The notes under the pieces are model-generated. The model saw nothing but the letters and a program-made list of their open reading frames with translations. It searched no databases and was not told the origin of the DNA. A stretch of 20,307 nucleotides of DNA, from IMG/VR virus record IMGVR_UViG_3300025369_000083, positions 1 through 20,307 of that record; one strand, 5' to 3'. Shown piece after piece: positions 4,807 through 18,259 of the stretch. The position numbers and the translations under genes were made by a program. The DNA is from a virus. The first letter of the stretch is position 1, and each line of letters opens with the position of its first letter.

Positions 4807-5574
4807 ATGGGCATTTTAGATAGCGTAAGTAAGCCGGGTGATCGTCCGGTCCTAGTAACGATCTGCGGTGACAGCGGTATGGGTAAGACCACGCTTGCCA
4901 CCACCTTCCCGAAGCCAATCGTGATCCGTGCGGAGGATGGCCTGCAGGCTATTCCGTCGAACATCCGTCCCGATTCGTTTCCGGTTTTATCTGGTCCCGA
5001 AGACCTTTGGGAGCAGTGCAAGGGGTTAATTAACGAGCAGCACGATTACCAGACGCTGATCGTTGATTCGGTTACGGCGCTTGAGCGTATGTTTGGCCAG
5101 TGGGTGGTAGATACCGACCCAAAGAAGCCGCGGGGCCTACAGCAGGCTCTCGGCGGTTACGGCGCAGGCCGTGACGCGGTGGCAGGCATGCACCAGCGTT
5201 TGCGTAAGGCGGCGGGTATTTTGGCCGAAAAGCGCGGCATGAACACGGTGTTCATTGCTCACGCGGACACGACCAAGATCGAGCCACCGGATGACGATGC
5301 ATACATGCGCTATACATTGCGCCTGCATGAGAAGTCGATGCCAGCCTACGTCGATGACGTGGACGTGGTAGGGTTTCTAAAGCTTGAGACCTTTACAACA
5401 GGTGACGGTGACAAGAAGAAAGCGATCTCTGACGGGACACGCATTCTTATTACCTACGCTACGGCGGCAAACGTCAGCAAAAACCGTTACGGCATTACTG
5501 AGCCGATCCCGGTTAAGCTGAACGAAAACCCATTAGCGAATTATATCCCATCTTTGAAAGGTAAGGCACAATGA
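4807..5574 (+). CDS. Sak4-like single-strand annealing recombinase ATPase (AAA_24)
   Basis: A 255-residue P-loop protein has Walker A GDSGMGKTT (21-29), Walker B TLIVDSVTALE (about 83-93) and a sensor segment VFIAHADTTKIE. This is the layout of phage nucleotide-binding proteins of the AAA_24/Sak4 type, which have a reduced RecA/Rad51-like core and promote single-strand annealing with a partner SSB. Start ATG 4807 is preceded by GAGGAG at seven bases; the longer frame from 4765 runs through the operator and is rejected. The stop overlaps the next ATG (ATGA), coupling it to the SSB-like gene. It opens the rightward operon. Family assignment is firm; annealing activity is inferred from the family. 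Confidence 0.88.
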   Translation: MGILDSVSKPGDRPVLVTICGDSGMGKTTLATTFPKPIVIRAEDGLQAIPSNIRPDSFPVLSGPEDLWEQCKGLINEQHDYQTLIVDSVTALERMFGQWVVDTDPKKPRGLQQALGGYGAGRDAVAGMHQRLRKAAGILAEKRGMNTVFIAHADTTKIEPPDDDAYMRYTLRLHEKSMPAYVDDVDVVGFLKLETFTTGDGDKKKAISDGTRILITYATAANVSKNRYGITEPIPVKLNENPLANYIPSLKGKAQ

Positions 5575-6107
5575 GTAATTTTTGGGAACTGAGCGACGGT
5601 GATGATGTCGCAAAAACAGGCGGTAAGTTTGAAGTTGGGGGCGGCAATGATTTTGAGCCGATCCCTGATAAAACTGAATGCGTGGCCGTGATCGACGAGG
5701 CTGGCGTTATTTCCAATCAGGCGGGGTTGAAGTTGATCTCGCTGCGTTGGAGCATTTTAACGCCGGCGGATTATAAAAACCGCAAGGTGTTTCAAAAGCT
5801 TTGGGTGTTTGATCAGGACCCGCAGGCCAAGAACCCTGTCGTCAAGCAGGACAAGGCCAAGAAGATGCTGTTTGCGATCGATAACAACTCTGGTGGCAAG
5901 CTGAAGGCATCGGGTAAGGAACCAACGTCGGAATTGCTTCAGGCATCGGTGATGAACAAGCCAATGCAGATCAAGATCAATCTCATGAAGCGTGACGATG
6001 GCACGGGCATGAATTGGATTTCGTCGGTCTCTCCGCGTGGCGCAGTTTCCGTCGCAACTGGTCCCAAGGTTGTAGCGGTAACGGAAGACGACGAAGTACC
6101 CTTCTAG
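5571..6107 (+). CDS. DUF669-family single-stranded DNA-binding protein
   Basis: A 178-residue protein starts MSNFWELSDGDDVAKTGGKF and contains FEPIPDKTECVAVIDEAG and an OB-fold-like core (LRWSILTPADYKNRKVFQKLW). Its end, EDDEVPF, matches the acidic aromatic tip (DDDIPF-like) by which SSB proteins recruit partners. DUF669 proteins sit beside Sak4 or other recombinases in phages and act as SSB. Here the start ATG overlaps the recombinase stop by four bases. Downstream are a strong hairpin and a long non-coding gap, so this gene probably ends the first transcription unit or attenuates it. Confidence 0.87.
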   Translation: MSNFWELSDGDDVAKTGGKFEVGGGNDFEPIPDKTECVAVIDEAGVISNQAGLKLISLRWSILTPADYKNRKVFQKLWVFDQDPQAKNPVVKQDKAKKMLFAIDNNSGGKLKASGKEPTSELLQASVMNKPMQIKINLMKRDDGTGMNWISSVSPRGAVSVATGPKVVAVTEDDEVPF

Positions 6108-6120
6108 GGCTGGAAGGGTT

Positions 6121-6149
6121 GGGGGCGGCTTACGAGCCGTCCTCATTTT
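6121..6149 (+). terminator. Terminator-like hairpin after the SSB gene
   Basis: A ten-pair stem, GGGGGCGGCT (6121-6130) with AGCCGTCCTC (6135-6144), including two G-U pairs, is closed by a UACG tetraloop of the stable UNCG class and followed by ATTTTG. The T-run is short, so termination may be partial or serve as an attenuator ahead of the exonuclease operon. It begins 14 bases after the SSB stop. Confidence 0.5.
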
Positions 6150-6336
6150 GACACGCGGCTGGTGGGGAAAGCAGACCCACTAACAATTTATGGGTAAAAA
6201 GGTACCTATTACGAGCGCCCATACTCAAGCCTGAAAGCTGTCAACAAGCGACATCAGGGACTGAGACATGTTGAAGATCGTTGAGGACCAGTCGGGGTAG
6301 CGTCCGACCCGCGTGACCAAAAATAAAGGAATGAAA
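6145..6336 (+). other. Structured non-coding gap between SSB and exonuclease genes
   Basis: This is the only sizeable gap in an otherwise packed window. Possible stems are GTGGG/CCCAC (6162-6166 with 6176-6180), an alternative ACCCA/TGGGT pairing using the same CCCA, a two-part hairpin CCTGA...TGTC/GACA...TCAGG at 6230-6258, and GTCGG/CCGAC (6291-6295 with 6304-6308). One copy of the operator half-site TGTCAAC occurs at 6239-6245. Only tiny frames (10-14 codons) without ribosome-binding sites are seen. The region could be a regulatory leader RNA, an origin or a regulator-binding region; no known riboswitch or tRNA is recognised. Confidence 0.45.
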
Positions 6337-6954
6337 ATGGAACAGCGTAGCGAAGAATGGTTTAAGGCCCGCAAGGGTCGGGTTACAGGGTCATCCGTAG
6401 GGGCCATTCTCGGTGTGTCTCCATTTACTAAACGAGGCGACGTCATGCGCCGCATGGTGCGTGATTGGCACGGTGCGCCGTCAGAGTTCACGGGAAATGT
6501 AGCCACAAATTGGGGTACATTGAACGAAGATGGTGCGATTTCTCAATATGAAATGAAAACCGGCACTATGGTTGAAAAGTGCGGTTTTTACACCATGGAC
6601 GATTGGTTAGGCGCGAGCCCGGACGGTCTAATTGGTGCGACAGGTTTAATTGAGGTAAAGTGCCCCTTTGGATTGCGGGGTGCCGAAAAGCCTGTTTTTA
6701 AAACAGCAAAGATGCAAGTTCATTATTATAGTCAGATGCAGATACAGATGTATGTAACGGGCCGCGAGTGGTGCCATTTCTACCAATGGGCCCCAAACGG
6801 AGACGAGCTGGAAACGGTACATTTTGATAAACCATATACCGACACGGCGCTCATGGCGTTAAAGCGGTTTTATGATGAGTACCTGATCGAGCGCGAAAAA
6901 CCAGAGAAGTATTTAAATGGGCAAGAGATCGCAGTTCAAGCGCCACAAGCTTGA
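6337..6954 (+). CDS. YqaJ-like viral recombinase / exonuclease
   Basis: A 205-residue PD-(D/E)XK nuclease starts MEQRSEEWFKARKGRVTGS, the classical YqaJ opening. Active-site positions are visible: E64 in WGTLNEDGA, D96 in ASPDGLIG, E106 and K108 in LIEVKCP, and Q134 in the YYSQMQIQM helix. These enzymes resemble lambda exonuclease and resect double-stranded ends to feed a single-strand annealing protein, here the Sak4-like ATPase upstream. ATG 6337 is chosen because AAAGGA lies six bases upstream; ATG 6331 directly abuts that site and GTG 6313 has no support. It opens the second part of the rightward operon after the structured gap. Confidence 0.93.
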   Translation: MEQRSEEWFKARKGRVTGSSVGAILGVSPFTKRGDVMRRMVRDWHGAPSEFTGNVATNWGTLNEDGAISQYEMKTGTMVEKCGFYTMDDWLGASPDGLIGATGLIEVKCPFGLRGAEKPVFKTAKMQVHYYSQMQIQMYVTGREWCHFYQWAPNGDELETVHFDKPYTDTALMALKRFYDEYLIEREKPEKYLNGQEIAVQAPQA

Positions 6955-12549: not shown

Positions 12550-14804
12550 TTACCCCTATTTGCTATTTCCAAGGCTTTGGCGACGGTAGTGTCGTCCAAA
12601 TTCAACAAAGGCTCAGTCTGTTGAGCCTGTTTCTTTCTAATCTTTTCAGACAACGCAATCAAGCGATGGGCCTCGGCCTTAGCGTCTTTTTTGACAGCGC
12701 CGCCCGTCTTGCGACCGATCCGGCCGCCTGCTGCGTGTTGTCCGGTATCGTATAAAGATGTAGGTAACTGCTCAGTAGCCTTCATAACAGCATACGGAAC
12801 GGCTGCCCTGACAGCACCAGCGCCAAGCGGATTAATGGTTTGGGCGCCGATAAGGGGTGCGCTTTTTTGAATTGCTTTGCCAATGACTTTTTGGCCCGTT
12901 GTGGGGGCATATTGAGATAAAGGTCGAGCAATGTTGCGCGCGCCATAAGCCCCAGCCAAAGACCCCATACCAGCGGCGCCCATTGTTTTTAATGGCAAGC
13001 CACCAAGAAGAGCCGATTCGGTGAGTGCCGCAATTGGTTCAGCAATTGTAACCGGAGCAATGTTGGTCCCCGCCTTCTGAGCAAATGTATCAAGTTTGCT
13101 ACCAAGGGGGACGCCGTCTGATGTAGCCCGTCCAAGAGCGTTAATTTTTTCAAATGTGTCTCGCGCAGGACCGCTGCCAAATAGCAAGTCTTTGCCAGTG
13201 GGGTGCAAAGCATCATTGTAGAATTTATTGAAATTTCCAAACGAGAATTGGCCGCCGGGGGCAAGTGTATTCGCGTATGTTTTCCCGACAAGGCTCCATG
13301 CGTCTGGATCGTAATTGTTTACCACCTGCTGCAATGGAGATAAGGCAGCTATGTTTGGTTTTTTAGCAGATGCTGCAGATACAATATTGGAATAAATATC
13401 AGATGACTTTTTCCCATTAGGAACCTCGGGACCGCCTTTTGTATTGCCAACTGTTTTTAAAATATTGTCTCGCAAATTGTACAGTTTTTGAGCATTAGCA
13501 TTAGCGGTTGCAAGATTTTGAACAGCTTGAGGACCGCCAACGAGTTGCGCGTAAGCTTCCATGTCTTTAGAAGCTGCATTCCGCAATTGGCCAAGGATTG
13601 TATCATTTAATCCTGCGGTTCCCGGCGTGCGATTATAAGGGTCTCTTTGCTCATCAATAATTTGACGCAAAGCGTGGATTTGGTCAAAAGTAAGACCTTC
13701 TTCTTTTCCAAGGGCTTTGGATACTATTGCCAATGTTGGATCAATATTTGAAACCTCTCCAATTGATGAACTGCGGGCAGCCTCAACTGCATTGCGAATA
13801 TTTGCAATGTCCATTTTTTGTGATGAATTAGATAGATTGGAAACAGGTTTATAAAAATCGTTCATTTGAAAACGGAAACCCATTGGGTCTTGATCGTCTT
13901 GTAACCATTTACTAACTGCCGATCGAACAGCTTCACCGGCTTTTTCTGGATCGGCATCACCTGCAACATCTGAAACCTTGCTGCCAAGTTCAGAAAGAGT
14001 GCGAGCAGATGCCTTTGGCACTTGATTAAAAAAATCAAGTTTTGAAGCAACGCTTACTGGCGTTGAAAGACCTGTAGCCGCACTTGGCAAAGAAACGCCT
14101 ATGTCATGTGCAAGGCCGCTAGCTATTGCCGCGCTATCTGCGCCTCCAGTAAGGGCATGAACGACGGGATCGGCGACTTTACCAGCGATTGAGCCAATAG
14201 TTTTACCGGCCGCACCTAATACCATAGGCGCAACTTTAGCGCCGATAGCACCTGCCGCCGCTCCGCTAAGTTTATCGGCTGCCGTGTCACCTTCAGACGA
14301 GCCATAAATAGCCCCTTGAGTTACAGGGTTGGCAAGAACATCTGCCGCTTTACCAGCAAGCTTAGAGCCTCCCGCAACGCTTCGTAATCCTGCGCCCGCA
14401 AGGCTGCCAATGTTGCCCGATTCTGCGAGTAGGCCAGCGCCAGCCAACTCTTCCGGCCCAGCGACAACGGCGTTAATTGCTGCAGGAATAGCGGCACCAA
14501 CCATACCAGCGCCATACGCGTAAGGATGTTGGCTCCAAGCTTCCTCGTTAGCCGCTTTTTGTTTAGCAAGCTCGCTAATATATTCTGGGTTGTCGCTGCC
14601 CGGTAAATGGCCAGTTTTAATCGCGGCGATTAATTGCGGCGAATATCCCAATGCAAATGCATTTCCGGCGCCACGACCAAATGATTCAAGCCCGCCGATC
14701 TCTGGCTTTTTCGTATCTGGTAAATCGCTAGCGGGAACAAGATTGCTAGGCAAATCGCTTTGCGGGACCAAATTGGATGGCAGATCGCTTGCGGGAACTG
14801 GCAT
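12546..14804 (-). CDS. Large Ala/Gly-rich internal virion (ejection-type) protein
   Basis: A 752-residue protein has an N-terminal decapeptide repeat (PASDLPSNLV, PQSDLPSNLV, PASDLP), then long Ala/Gly-rich helical segments (such as GAGMVGAAIPAAINAVVAG and GAIGAKVAPMVLGAAGK), a polar middle, and a conserved C-terminus: GGRIGRKTGGAVKK, then QTEPLLNLDD and VAKALEIANRGK. That C-terminal module recurs in podovirus-like virion proteins in my recollection. The composition is that of ejection proteins, which leave the capsid to form a channel into the host. ATG 14804 shares one base with the preceding stop and has GGGAG eight bases upstream; a GTG at 14819 overlaps that site and is rejected. Confidence 0.78.
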   Translation of the reverse strand: MPVPASDLPSNLVPQSDLPSNLVPASDLPDTKKPEIGGLESFGRGAGNAFALGYSPQLIAAIKTGHLPGSDNPEYISELAKQKAANEEAWSQHPYAYGAGMVGAAIPAAINAVVAGPEELAGAGLLAESGNIGSLAGAGLRSVAGGSKLAGKAADVLANPVTQGAIYGSSEGDTAADKLSGAAAGAIGAKVAPMVLGAAGKTIGSIAGKVADPVVHALTGGADSAAIASGLAHDIGVSLPSAATGLSTPVSVASKLDFFNQVPKASARTLSELGSKVSDVAGDADPEKAGEAVRSAVSKWLQDDQDPMGFRFQMNDFYKPVSNLSNSSQKMDIANIRNAVEAARSSSIGEVSNIDPTLAIVSKALGKEEGLTFDQIHALRQIIDEQRDPYNRTPGTAGLNDTILGQLRNAASKDMEAYAQLVGGPQAVQNLATANANAQKLYNLRDNILKTVGNTKGGPEVPNGKKSSDIYSNIVSAASAKKPNIAALSPLQQVVNNYDPDAWSLVGKTYANTLAPGGQFSFGNFNKFYNDALHPTGKDLLFGSGPARDTFEKINALGRATSDGVPLGSKLDTFAQKAGTNIAPVTIAEPIAALTESALLGGLPLKTMGAAGMGSLAGAYGARNIARPLSQYAPTTGQKVIGKAIQKSAPLIGAQTINPLGAGAVRAAVPYAVMKATEQLPTSLYDTGQHAAGGRIGRKTGGAVKKDAKAEAHRLIALSEKIRKKQAQQTEPLLNLDDTTVAKALEIANRGK
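14718..14795 (-). repeat. Degenerate 30-bp tandem repeat (SDLPSNLVP)
   Basis: Two full and one partial 30-base units encode residues 4-29 of the ejection-type protein. The peptide is nearly identical between units, while several codon third positions differ, so the protein repeat is being conserved. Confidence 0.7.
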
Positions 14805-17800
14805 TATTGATACTCCCACTGACCATTGCGGAATACGATAGGCTTGCCGCTCTTAGAGGTAGAGGTTGAACCTTCCACTATACCAGTTGGAGCAGACCCA
14901 GCAGCTGGTCTACTTTGCTTTTCAACTTGATCAGCAAACTCATCGAAAGGAATCTGGCTCATAAACTTTTCTTGATACCCCGGTACGTCAAATCCTTCTT
15001 TTTGAGGATTGTACCCTTGATACATTTGTTGCTGATACATAACAGCAGCCTTTGCCCGAGCGAGAAGGTGGTGAACTGTTTCAGGTTGTGCGGTTGGGCG
15101 AGCAATTTGTGCGGCAATTGCTTCAAGTTCAGCTTTTGGTGCGCCGGGCGGCATATTGGCAAGTTGTTGTGTTATCAAGGCCGATGCACCCTTCTGTGCA
15201 GTTTGGAAGTCTGCAGCATCACTATTATGCAATTCTGGAATATTATTTTTTGGATCAACCACACCCATAAGTGTTGAGAACGCAGCCCTTGAAGGGGCGT
15301 CTGCGCCAGCTCTAAATTTGGAATAAATATCTTCCATATCTTGAAGATTTTTCTGAATGGTAGGGGCGATTTGAGTAAACTTAATTTTATTGTTTACGAA
15401 GTCTTTAGAGGCTTCCATCTGCTGTTCAGCAAACGTGCCTTGCTGACCAGCTGCAATAGCGCCCGGGAGGTTGATGCGGTTGCCGTTCACATCTGTCGTA
15501 TATCCATGAGTTTCAATCTCGTTTAAACGAACTCTCATGTTGTCGACGATATTTTTTACGTTCGCATCTACGGATGTACCGTTTTTTTGAATTGCAGCCT
15601 GCAAAGAAAGCGGGTCACTCATGGCAGGAATTTGCACTCCATTACGGTTAACTATAGCAGACTGCATTTGAAGCAAGCTCAATGCCTGAGGCATAGATGT
15701 GCCAGTATTGGTTGATTGAGCCGCTTGGCCACCAGAAGGAAGATAGCCCTTATAACCAACCATATTGGCATAATCTTGCAGCGATACGTTTTGTCCAGTC
15801 TGGGCATTATATGCCTGTAGGCCGCCTGCAAGTTTGTTGAGGGTATCAATTTGACGTTGCTGCACAACAGGCTGGAGGGCCTGACGTTCGAGCATTTGGT
15901 TCTGTACATCTTCGTAGCTCTTAGCGCCTGCACCAACGCCCTGCAAGAGCGCGGCACCAAGATAACGGCTATTGGAGCCAGCCATAGCGCCGAGGCCTGA
16001 CAGGAGTGGCACAAGGAATTTCTCGCTTGTGAGCGTATCGCCAAGGGACTTGGGTTGCTCTTCGCCGGGCACGGCAAAACCTTGCTGTCCTGTAGCGGCC
16101 TGAGCATTCATAGCACTCGGAGCAGGACGATCGGCAGGACTTGTTGCACCAAGAAGTCCTTGATTGCGTGCCACTGTCCAAGCGTTTGCACCATGCTTTG
16201 CGATGTAATTAGCGCCCCACTGGGAGATGTCGTTCTGATTAGCGGGGTCGTTAATGTAGCTAATTTTATCCTGAGGAGTACCGCTCTTTGCCAGCTCTGG
16301 ATTGCGTTCAGCAACGTAGGCATCGCCAAGGCCGGGGTTAGGATACTGCTTAGACAGGCCACCAACATGCAATTGGAGAATGCCGCCCGACGAACCTTCA
16401 TCGCCCAGAACAGGTTTTCCGCCGCTTTCGCCTTTGATTAAGCGAGTATATTCAACAGGATTAATACCAGCATTGCGCGCATGGTCTTCTGCTGCGGAAA
16501 GATCAAAACCCGGAATTTGTTTAGCCTGCGCCCCTGAAGGGCCAACAATACCACCCGGTTCGGCAGCAAATGGATCAAATCCCTCTGCGTCTCCGCCATC
16601 CGCAAACCCTGCACGGCCGCCCTTGGAGAATAAACTACCAATCCAAGCAAGGTCTTTGCCAAATGAAACGGCATTATTGAGATCGTTCATACCGTTCGAA
16701 CCAGAGCTGCCCGAAGGCAACTGCTGAGACTGCATAAGCTTCAATTCAGTTGGCTTTTTCTCACCTTCTTTGACAACGTCCGACATTGGGTCGTTTTCAA
16801 AATAAGGTTCTACATCGCCACCATCGGCATAAGCATGAACGAGGCCACCGCGATATGCGCCCTGTTGTGGCGCAGTGGATGAATTAACATAATCCGAAGC
16901 AAACTTTTTAAACTTTTGCCCTTGTGCCCAAAGGTCTTGAGCATCCTTGCCCAAGGTCGAAGCTTCATGGACGTCGCCCATAAGCGTTTCGGGAGCTTGT
17001 GTGCGGGATGGACTTGCAACGGCAAGGTGGCCTACAGGAAGACTGGCTGCAGGGACAAAGCCCTTACCGCCCGGAGTTCCGCCACTTGTGGCTCCGTATA
17101 GGCCGCCCTGTTGGAAAGGGGCGTAAGACTGTTTTTGTGATGCCAGTAGGGCCGCGATGTCATTGGGGTTAGATGCCACGTCCCCGCCGTCAAAGAAACC
17201 TTCCTTTTCATGCATAGGCGTGACCATTCCACCTTCGGAATTGCCAACCAACCCGCCCGCATAACGTGCCGCACGATCGTAGTCGACGGTCTTGAAACCA
17301 TGTGATTCGCCGACCGCTTCTGGATGGACCTTCTCGACCTCGTCGGCCATAAAACCAATGTTTGTCTTGTCGTCGCCCTTGTACTTGAACTTATAGATTG
17401 GCAAGCCTTCATCCGTCTCGCCGATGCGATGGATATCGTGTTTGAGGCGACGATCGGAGAAGAACGACGTGGGTGACGTCTGCGTCGTGGTTGATCCAGA
17501 CAGGGCGCCGGTGCCTTCCGCAATGTTGGCAAGGAATTGAGCCACTTGGAATGGATAAGCCTGCTGCTGTTGGAATTGGTTGTACAATGCCGTCTTGCCA
17601 GCCTGCTCGGTTTGTTGGCCAAGCGTACCAGCGCCAAGTTGCGCTTGCGCGCCCTGCAGGCCTGCTGTCTGCGCGGCACCGGCGAGATTGCCATACTGAT
17701 TGGCTAGCGCACCCTGCTGGGCAAGCCCCTGCATATAGTTTTGAGCAGACTGCTGATAACCCTGATTTGCCATCTGGCCAAGCGTCTGCCCCATGGCAAG

Positions 17801-18259
17801 GTTTTGCTGACCCATGAGAGCCGCCTGAGCAATGTTGCCTCGATCGCCGCCGAACGCACCCTGTTGGATTGTATTGCCGAGCAATTGCTGTTGCTGCTGC
17901 TGGTTTTGATTTTGCAGCATTGCTGCCGTCGAACCCATAGCATTCTGCAAATACGGGTTCATATAGGCTTGAACGCCCTGCTGGTAATTAGGAGCGTTGT
18001 AACCTTGGTAAGCTTGATCAGTGCCGGCCATAGCCCCTTGGTAGCCCGGTTGGGCAGCCATAGCCTGCTGGTTGATGTTACCAACACCTTGCTGTTGTTG
18101 TGCGTTTAAGGGAGCGACGAAGGCGTTAGGGTCGGTGCTATATTGCTGGAACGGCGTACCTGCTGCAGTCTGAGCCTGAGCGTTAACGGAGTTATACCGC
18201 GCCAGTACCTCGGGCGGGATAGATACGCTAGACGTTGTTGTTCCAGTCTTGCCACCCAT
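14804..18259 (-). CDS. Virion protein: Gln-rich N-term, internal S74 domain, lysozyme-like domain
   Basis: An 1151-residue protein. Residues 1-265 are Gln/Ala/Gly-rich (with a QNQNQQQQQQ run near 116-125 and GAFGGDRGNIAQAAL). Residues about 268-331 match the S74 intramolecular chaperone/autoprocessing domain: SDRRLK at 268-273, with the Ser268 and Lys273 spacing of the endosialidase dyad, then IGFMADEVEKVHPEAV and VDYDRAA. Glycine motifs follow (AYADGGD 476-482, GFADGGD 551-557). Residues about 583-705 look like a lysozyme-fold transglycosylase (ESGG with E611, SSGGILQL, then NDISQWGANYIAKHG). The rest (about 740-1151) is helical, of unknown role. S74 domains usually end tail spikes; here it is internal. 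ATG 18259 has GGAG seven bases upstream. The protein likely helps DNA entry through the cell wall. Confidence 0.82.
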   Translation of the reverse strand: MGGKTGTTTSSVSIPPEVLARYNSVNAQAQTAAGTPFQQYSTDPNAFVAPLNAQQQQGVGNINQQAMAAQPGYQGAMAGTDQAYQGYNAPNYQQGVQAYMNPYLQNAMGSTAAMLQNQNQQQQQQLLGNTIQQGAFGGDRGNIAQAALMGQQNLAMGQTLGQMANQGYQQSAQNYMQGLAQQGALANQYGNLAGAAQTAGLQGAQAQLGAGTLGQQTEQAGKTALYNQFQQQQAYPFQVAQFLANIAEGTGALSGSTTTQTSPTSFFSDRRLKHDIHRIGETDEGLPIYKFKYKGDDKTNIGFMADEVEKVHPEAVGESHGFKTVDYDRAARYAGGLVGNSEGGMVTPMHEKEGFFDGGDVASNPNDIAALLASQKQSYAPFQQGGLYGATSGGTPGGKGFVPAASLPVGHLAVASPSRTQAPETLMGDVHEASTLGKDAQDLWAQGQKFKKFASDYVNSSTAPQQGAYRGGLVHAYADGGDVEPYFENDPMSDVVKEGEKKPTELKLMQSQQLPSGSSGSNGMNDLNNAVSFGKDLAWIGSLFSKGGRAGFADGGDAEGFDPFAAEPGGIVGPSGAQAKQIPGFDLSAAEDHARNAGINPVEYTRLIKGESGGKPVLGDEGSSGGILQLHVGGLSKQYPNPGLGDAYVAERNPELAKSGTPQDKISYINDPANQNDISQWGANYIAKHGANAWTVARNQGLLGATSPADRPAPSAMNAQAATGQQGFAVPGEEQPKSLGDTLTSEKFLVPLLSGLGAMAGSNSRYLGAALLQGVGAGAKSYEDVQNQMLERQALQPVVQQRQIDTLNKLAGGLQAYNAQTGQNVSLQDYANMVGYKGYLPSGGQAAQSTNTGTSMPQALSLLQMQSAIVNRNGVQIPAMSDPLSLQAAIQKNGTSVDANVKNIVDNMRVRLNEIETHGYTTDVNGNRINLPGAIAAGQQGTFAEQQMEASKDFVNNKIKFTQIAPTIQKNLQDMEDIYSKFRAGADAPSRAAFSTLMGVVDPKNNIPELHNSDAADFQTAQKGASALITQQLANMPPGAPKAELEAIAAQIARPTAQPETVHHLLARAKAAVMYQQQMYQGYNPQKEGFDVPGYQEKFMSQIPFDEFADQVEKQSRPAAGSAPTGIVEGSTSTSKSGKPIVFRNGQWEYQ
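17267..17458 (-). other. Internal S74 autoprocessing domain segment
   Basis: These bases encode residues about 268-331 of the virion protein: SDRRLKHDI at the start, then KFKYKGDDKTNIGFMADEVE and the YDRAA end. In known S74 proteins cleavage occurs just before the Ser of this motif. Here that would separate a 267-residue Gln-rich piece from an 884-residue piece. Confidence 0.75.

Follow-up and report, generated by a model that had tools for sequence, protein, structure and literature searches.

The window, by which we mean the whole 20,307-nucleotide stretch of viral DNA that was analysed, contains a gap of 229 nt (6108–6336) between the stop codon of one gene at 6107 and the ATG of a YqaJ-like exonuclease gene at 6337. 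According to the original prediction, the gap has no plausible gene, and the list of open reading frames bears this out. The upstream gene had been called an SSB; it matches no Pfam family. The features discussed here are the following (L numbers denote viral loci used for comparison):

5571–6107, plus strand: upstream gene (the predicted SSB), an open reading frame that precedes the exonuclease gene in 72 of 80 loci.
6120–6145, plus strand: hairpin at the 3' end of the upstream gene, with 11 pairs (6120–6130 with 6135–6145) and a UACG loop, then UUUU.
6152–6315, plus strand: the structured RNA element as a whole, 164 nt, as matched by covariance model R1.
6152–6158, plus strand: 5' strand of stem P1, CACGCGG, forming 7 pairs with 6309–6315, with strong covariation in the family.
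6162–6180, plus strand: hairpin H2, GTGGG-GAAAGCAGA-CCCAC, with 5 of 5 pairs varying on both sides and nearly invariant loop columns.
6181–6290, plus strand: variable domain V, 110 nt, with a final A before H3.
6230–6258, plus strand: putative stem in V, CCTGA (6230–6234) with TCAGG (6254–6258); L012 has CTAAAC/GTTTAG at the corresponding place.
6241–6274, plus strand: candidate pseudoknot in V, TCAACA (6241–6246) with TGTTGA (6269–6274), a perfect complement; L012 has TGGTG/CACCA.
6291–6308, plus strand: hairpin H3, GTCGG-GGTAGCGT-CCGAC, abutting P1, with 4 of 5 pairs varying on both sides and UAGCG in 51 of 51 rows.
6309–6315, plus strand: 3' strand of P1, CCGCGTG, pairing with 6152–6158 and followed by ACCA (6316–6319).
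6337–6954, plus strand: downstream gene, a YqaJ-like exonuclease (Pfam PF09588, 83.5 bits).

The original prediction took all 229 bases as one structured region. Structure is indeed present, but the element occupies only 6152–6315 and the hairpin at 6120–6145 is separate from it; two things, an upstream-gene hairpin and a 164-nt RNA element, had been merged. We compared 80 viral loci encoding relatives of the exonuclease, the upstream gene being present in 72 of them as well. The gap measures 229 nt in the window, L002 and L003 (the latter two having the window's gap sequence with no differences), 195 nt in L007 and 232 nt in L012. It shrinks to 54–87 nt in 21 of the 72 loci, where the 164-nt element is absent, and reaches 286–1089 nt in other loci, some of which carry small open reading frames there. 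This variation among relatives indicates that the gap is made of two parts. At L004, L008, L011, L044, L045, L056 and L063, apparently unrelated cassettes of small open reading frames replace the RNA, as at a hot spot.

The first of the two parts had been described as a ten-pair, UACG-capped hairpin. It is real and has the UACG loop, but it has 11 pairs and lies outside the RNA element. When the stretches following the upstream stop codon were taken from 46 of 73 loci (window included), giving 45 distinct sequences, a hairpin of 9–13 pairs, 7 or more of them G-C, was found at the same place in 28 of the 45. The loops differ among these relatives (UACG, GCAA, TCGG and others), and a few T usually stand 3' of the stem. 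Since this hairpin occurs with or without the RNA element, it is a feature of the upstream gene, namely a terminator-like or 3'-end structure. In the window only four T stand behind it, and the terminator scan did not count it. Elsewhere in the window, at 14804–18259 on the minus strand, a 1151-aa protein has an internal Peptidase_S74 match (residues 268–316), far from its C-terminus.

Turning to the second part, the pairing of GTGGG (6162–6166) with CCCAC (6176–6180) noted in the original prediction is genuine: it is H2, and all five of its pairs vary on both sides in the family. The alternative proposed for CCCA, in which it would pair with TGGGT (6191–6195) to the exclusion of GTGGG, found no comparative support. 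The TGGG of 6191–6195 could instead pair with 6218–6222, a helix that is unchanged in the single close relative. Folding energy is not striking on either strand (z of −1.97 on the plus strand, where 7 of 200 shuffled sequences fold equally well; on the minus strand 6 of 200 are as good). Fold energy on its own is weak evidence, and it is the comparison of sequences that is decisive.

The family was gathered outwards from a pattern of 19 bases of the window's 3' hairpin, GTCGGGRTAGCGTCCGAYC, which matched 11 viral stretches. A BLAST search with a 34-base stretch led to the Ochrobactrum phage POI1126, which has GCCGG/CCGGC in place of the window's GTCGG/CCGAC, a P1 of CAGAACGG/CCGTTCTG, and the same type of H2 loop as the window. 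Widened patterns matched 19 viral stretches (H2-based), 96 (H3-based) and at least 120 (an exact 20-base stretch of H2). After merging, and leaving aside the window's own, 181 loci carry the architecture in 183 elements, a count that includes two weak members: L083 (18.5 bits) and L084, which is phage SM1 (20.9 bits, an H3-like fragment only), both unsafe as members. L086 was rejected, its P1 being absent. L254, L117, L194, L206 and L140 each appear to have two elements on one contig.

Cultured phages are among the members. R1 gives 87.2 bits in POI1126, 71.7 in Synechococcus phage Ssp-JY40, 56.1 in Pseudomonas phage Persinger, 54.6 in Orimi01, 48.3 in vB_PaeS-D14H and 32.3 in PotUPM1; good matches were obtained in 6 of the 8 cultured-phage records examined, and Streptomyces phage pSt2308 had no R1 match. 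Under strict filters, 1 of 299 Pseudomonadota genomes matched R1, so the element is uncommon in the prophages of sequenced species. A consensus query found nothing in E. coli genomes, plasmids gave short matches only (13 records), and a BLAST search of the window region against phages returned nothing. Thirteen genome stretches contain the H3 19-mer, about 7 being expected by our own estimate; R1 was silent when 7 of these genomes were searched in full, and we therefore took these matches as chance.

All members share one order: P1, 0–3 bases, H2, V, an A, H3, and the 3' strand of P1 directly after H3. P1 is mostly 7–10 bp (range 6–25; exactly 7 bp in 37 of 183). H2 has a 5-bp stem and a loop that is either GAAAGCAGA or an enlarged form (GAAA...GCAGA), V runs from 31 to 405 nt with a median of 93 and ends in A in 148 of 170 distinct cases, and H3 has 5 bp and an 8-base loop containing UAGCG. 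Among 91 members chosen by H2, the commonest H3 loops are AGUAGCGC (44) and AGUAGCGA (23). The window's own loop, GGUAGCGU, stands in 61 of 88 members that were mostly chosen by H3, a dominance that results from the search pattern. The window itself has a closing P1 of at least 6 bp, H3 set against the 3' strand of P1, UAGCG in the H3 loop, and an H2 with a GAAAGCAGA-type loop beginning three bases after P1.

Several lines of evidence argue against chance. A detector that needs P1, H2 and H3 in register found 104 matches, 92 of them distinct, in the loci collected and none when the same sequences were reversed, and at 115 sites picked by H2 sequence alone, P1 was present in 112 and the full architecture in 100. 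In an alignment of 51 core rows, both partners vary in 15 of the 17 pairs. Covariation scores 0.596, compared with 0.142 (sd 0.011) for shuffled alignments, none of 500 of which reach it, and 0.05–0.13 for slid partners; in this alignment the window and L012 rows are off by one base in P1, which counts against the score. Paired cells make up 98.6% of the same 51 rows, a figure that follows in part from the detector's own demand for pairing, although the existence of fixed-register partners does not. Covariance model R1, trained on 25 members with the window, L012 and L007 excluded, has a sole match in the window at E 10, namely 6152–6315 (58.3 bits, E 1.1e-12). Because the training set was gathered from patterns begun with the window's H3, the H3 share of this score is not independent; the P1 and H2 shares are. 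Among the 80 neighbour loci, R1 matches 4 (L002, L003, L007 and L012), in every case within the gap between upstream gene and exonuclease. Between the window and L012, the P1+H2 and H3+P1 ends are identical at 54 of 54 positions, whereas identity is 72% for the upstream gene, 79% for the exonuclease and 74% for V, a pattern that on these alignments indicates purifying selection on both ends.

Structure is thus conserved in relatives, as seen by the detector, the covariation, R1 and the sites chosen by H2. Its absence from relatives had been named in the original prediction as a refuting condition, and on this check the prediction is upheld. We are all but certain that 6152–6315 is a real structured element. 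It very probably works as RNA rather than DNA, given 71 G-U pairs among 1774 P1 pairs and the fact that, wherever a predicted tRNA or tmRNA is no more than 150 nt away (12 elements), the element and the tRNA or tmRNA share a strand. Hence what was put forward as a candidate regulatory RNA stands as a conserved structured RNA on the comparative tests, which carry it that far and not to a regulatory role.

The interior of the element behaves quite differently from its frame. The window's V matches that of L012 in 83 of 112 columns and that of L007 in 50 of 110; L007 has an exonuclease gene with 89% DNA identity to the window's, yet its V is unrelated. There are 26 pairs of members whose cores are at least 94% identical, and in 19 of these V has no detectable similarity, which indicates that the interior is exchanged as a block. 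L198, L201 and L132, for example, have identical cores and V domains of 106, 89 and 50 nt. Judged from such comparisons, core and V evolve separately. Within the window's V, a pseudoknot can form in which the TCAACA/TGTTGA helix crosses CCTGA/TCAGG, the pair of window and L012 being the sole comparison. A canonical T arm lies inside V in 9 of 183 elements, where 0.06 would be expected; attP debris is one conceivable source of these arms. The V of L305 resembles tRNA positions 8 to CCA, then the acceptor 5' strand, and is possibly a permuted tRNA, a reading that ARAGORN confirmed in no rotation.

The elements are largely intergenic: in 138 of 166, overlap with predicted genes stays below 20%. 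Element and next gene share a strand in 119 of 158 cases, element and previous gene in 108 of 145; these counts come from a simple gene caller whose strand calls contradict the annotated ones in two records or more, L222 and L105 among them. Within 5 kb lie repressor-like genes (23 loci), TerL (20), portal, SSB and exonuclease genes, all labelled by eye. A co-occurring protein family was sought and none was constant, no neighbour (again by eye) appearing in more than 23 of 181 loci. A terminator-like hairpin stands within 100 nt downstream in 14 of 182 elements and upstream in 11 of 178. A terminator or promoter of its own is not general in the family, and the window has none; as most elements are without their own terminator, there is room for a role in cis within an operon. 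At L088, L089 and L091 the element has TGTTTCACGTGAAACA, which we take to be the parS consensus, on both flanks.

Some members lie close to tRNA genes. A predicted tRNA or tmRNA occurs within 1 kb for 18 of 97 elements, a count that still includes L098 and L100, two early members left out of the neighbour counts made afterwards; the general link to tRNA clusters that was initially apparent was rejected on this figure. Directly 5' of the element, L198 and L200 (with the same sequence in L172) have a circularly permuted tRNA-like gene, in the order anticodon-arm 3' half, T arm, acceptor 3' strand, linker, acceptor 5' strand, D arm and anticodon-arm 5' half. ARAGORN calls a tRNA there only upon rotation (12 and 8 rotations), none in the native order and none in 400 shuffles. 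Upstream of the elements of L105, L119, L153 and L160, stretches closed by 6–9 bp stems lie beside tRNAs and the element, and look array-like by eye.

Does the element belong to a known class of RNA? At the gathering score, Rfam 15 (4227 models) has 0 matches in the window, and 6050–6400 has none even at E 10. In 18 further loci, mostly member loci, only tRNA and tmRNA reached threshold, and for two members all matches at E 10 were below 13 bits. A search of the open-access literature found no description of the family, which may be described elsewhere. The family is thus new in that it matches no known RNA family that could be tested, novelty here meaning absence from Rfam 15 and from the open-access search. 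To our knowledge, few phage non-coding RNA families are known, and fewer still are common to unrelated phages.

Nearest in kind are GOLLD and ROOL, for which a homo-oligomeric cage is a further criterion beside their Rfam models. Passages of PMC12286853 present both as structured phage or prophage RNAs of unknown function, often near tRNA islands, GOLLD having a constant 3' part and a less constant 5' part, with a linker that sometimes holds a tRNA. The likeness lies in a phage RNA near tRNAs and, for GOLLD, in a variable part that may hold one, as PMC12286853 describes it there. The differences are that GOLLD and ROOL are, in the same account, far larger, with other sequences and folds, that their Rfam models are unmatched at the gathering score, and that near-tRNA members are a minority in the new family (the 18 of 97).

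Other known RNAs are less close. HK022 put, in passages of PMC9378689, is an RNA of about 70 nt with two stem-loops and, like our element, a two-hairpin phage RNA that needs no dedicated protein. As described there, put has neither a closing stem nor a variable domain, whereas the element has 164 nt and a covarying P1, and so does not show the put arrangement of two stem-loops in about 70 nt with no closing stem. The C4 antisense RNA (RF01695, 87 model positions) is likewise a small structured phage RNA, but phage P1 scores 68.8 bits with the C4 model against 11.7 with R1, and the C4 model passed its cut-off in 0 of 8 records, that of L012 included, while passing it in the phage P1 positive control. 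The STAXI motif, according to a passage of PMC2864571, is a pseudoknot RNA often near SSB and integrase genes. It resembles the window in being a pseudoknot motif often near SSB genes, but in that passage it consists of tandem repeats of one pseudoknot, and the window has no Rfam match.

What, then, might this RNA do for the phage? As our best explanation, to which as a whole we give an even chance of being right, 6152–6315 on the plus strand is a gene for a stable, probably trans-acting non-coding RNA of an unlisted tailed-phage family with an exchangeable interior. The lack of a fixed neighbour or downstream gene, the closed P1 and the constant hairpin pair would together fit a stable RNA acting in trans, and we lean slightly towards its acting mainly in this way. 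The element would be transcribed along with its neighbours and then cut from the longer transcript as a compact unit, with P1 holding both ends of the released RNA. The nearly invariant H2 and H3 would dock onto a conserved partner, for which a host factor or a second copy of the RNA is the likeliest candidate. V would be the portion that differs between phages, its changes driven by an arms race with the host. An exchangeable interior would fit a part under changing selection; that V is a fast-changing, host-directed part is a possibility we hold with some doubt. More speculatively, and in our view unlikely, the RNA may serve for display, the P1/H2/H3 frame lending the RNA stability, docking on one conserved host component and presenting a pseudoknotted domain that is swapped whole. 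Such an RNA might be, and this too we think unlikely, an inhibitor, decoy or sensor particular to each phage, swapped in the manner of anti-defence proteins.

The main rival, to which we give a low probability, is an antiterminator acting in cis like HK022 put, in which the nascent RNA binds its own RNA polymerase and causes read-through of terminators in an early or late operon. The two hairpins with nearly invariant loops, the lack of a constant protein-gene neighbour and the co-directional next gene (119 of 158) are all consistent with this, as is a position near operon starts: labelled by eye, repressor-like genes accompany the element at 23 loci (with a shared strand in 22 of 24) and it lies upstream of TerL in 14 of 20. 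However, put, in the passages of PMC9378689, lacks both a stem to close its ends and a 31–405-nt variable domain between its two hairpins, R1 has no match in HK022, and the window's element is mid-operon. In Persinger, moreover, the next annotated gene runs in the opposite direction and a terminator-like hairpin stands immediately after the RNA. A tRNA-like RNA, which might mimic tRNA or serve as a decoy to nucleases that attack it, is improbable. In such a molecule P1 would be the acceptor, H2 the D arm and H3 the T arm, with V replacing the anticodon arm. The helix order is that of tRNA, P1 and H2 being separated by few bases and H3 and P1 by none; in the window P1 measures 7 bp and has ACCA behind it; the 9 T arms among 183 V domains exceed expectation (0.06); and some elements lie in tRNA clusters. 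Yet no more than 37 of 183 elements have a P1 of 7 bp (range 6–25), CCA falls within the first five bases after P1 in 25 of 183, which is mildly above chance and no family feature, the H3 loop differs from a T loop, and ARAGORN finds no tRNA in the window; a 7-bp acceptor, a UUCRA T loop, a CCA end and an anticodon arm do not come together in the element.

That the RNA is a ribozyme, cleaving or splicing itself so as to process the transcript or set V free, is very improbable: the invariant unpaired bases of H2 and H3, the pseudoknot, the unrelated genomic places and the exchangeable interior could be read in its favour, but there is no junction with invariant bases marking a cut site and no Rfam ribozyme matched. 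Scarcely credible is an ordinary gap, in which a terminator hairpin stands beside chance structure. It has on its side that 6120–6145 is an ordinary conserved 3'-end hairpin and that the fold z is only −1.97; against it stand the recurrence in unrelated phages, the skew, which has no turn, and the covariation, which already refutes it for 6152–6315. The two functions originally offered along these lines are unsupported. For an attenuator, P1 leaves the start region of the next gene uncovered, no terminator-like sites were found at 5900–6500, the hairpin at 6120–6145 is independent of the element, and the downstream gene varies across the family. For a replication origin, the cumulative GC skew is lowest near 2000 and climbs across 6108–6336 with no turn, and family members occupy many genomic places.

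Returning to the reading we prefer, a stable, probably trans-acting RNA with an exchangeable interior, the family is of note for joining strong covariation to a constant frame around an unrelated interior, even among near-identical frames, which is an unusual mode of evolution. Since it occurs in cultured Pseudomonas, Ochrobactrum and Synechococcus phages, it is open to experimental test. If the interior is host-directed, the family would be the equivalent, at the RNA level, of anti-defence genes that are exchanged between phages.
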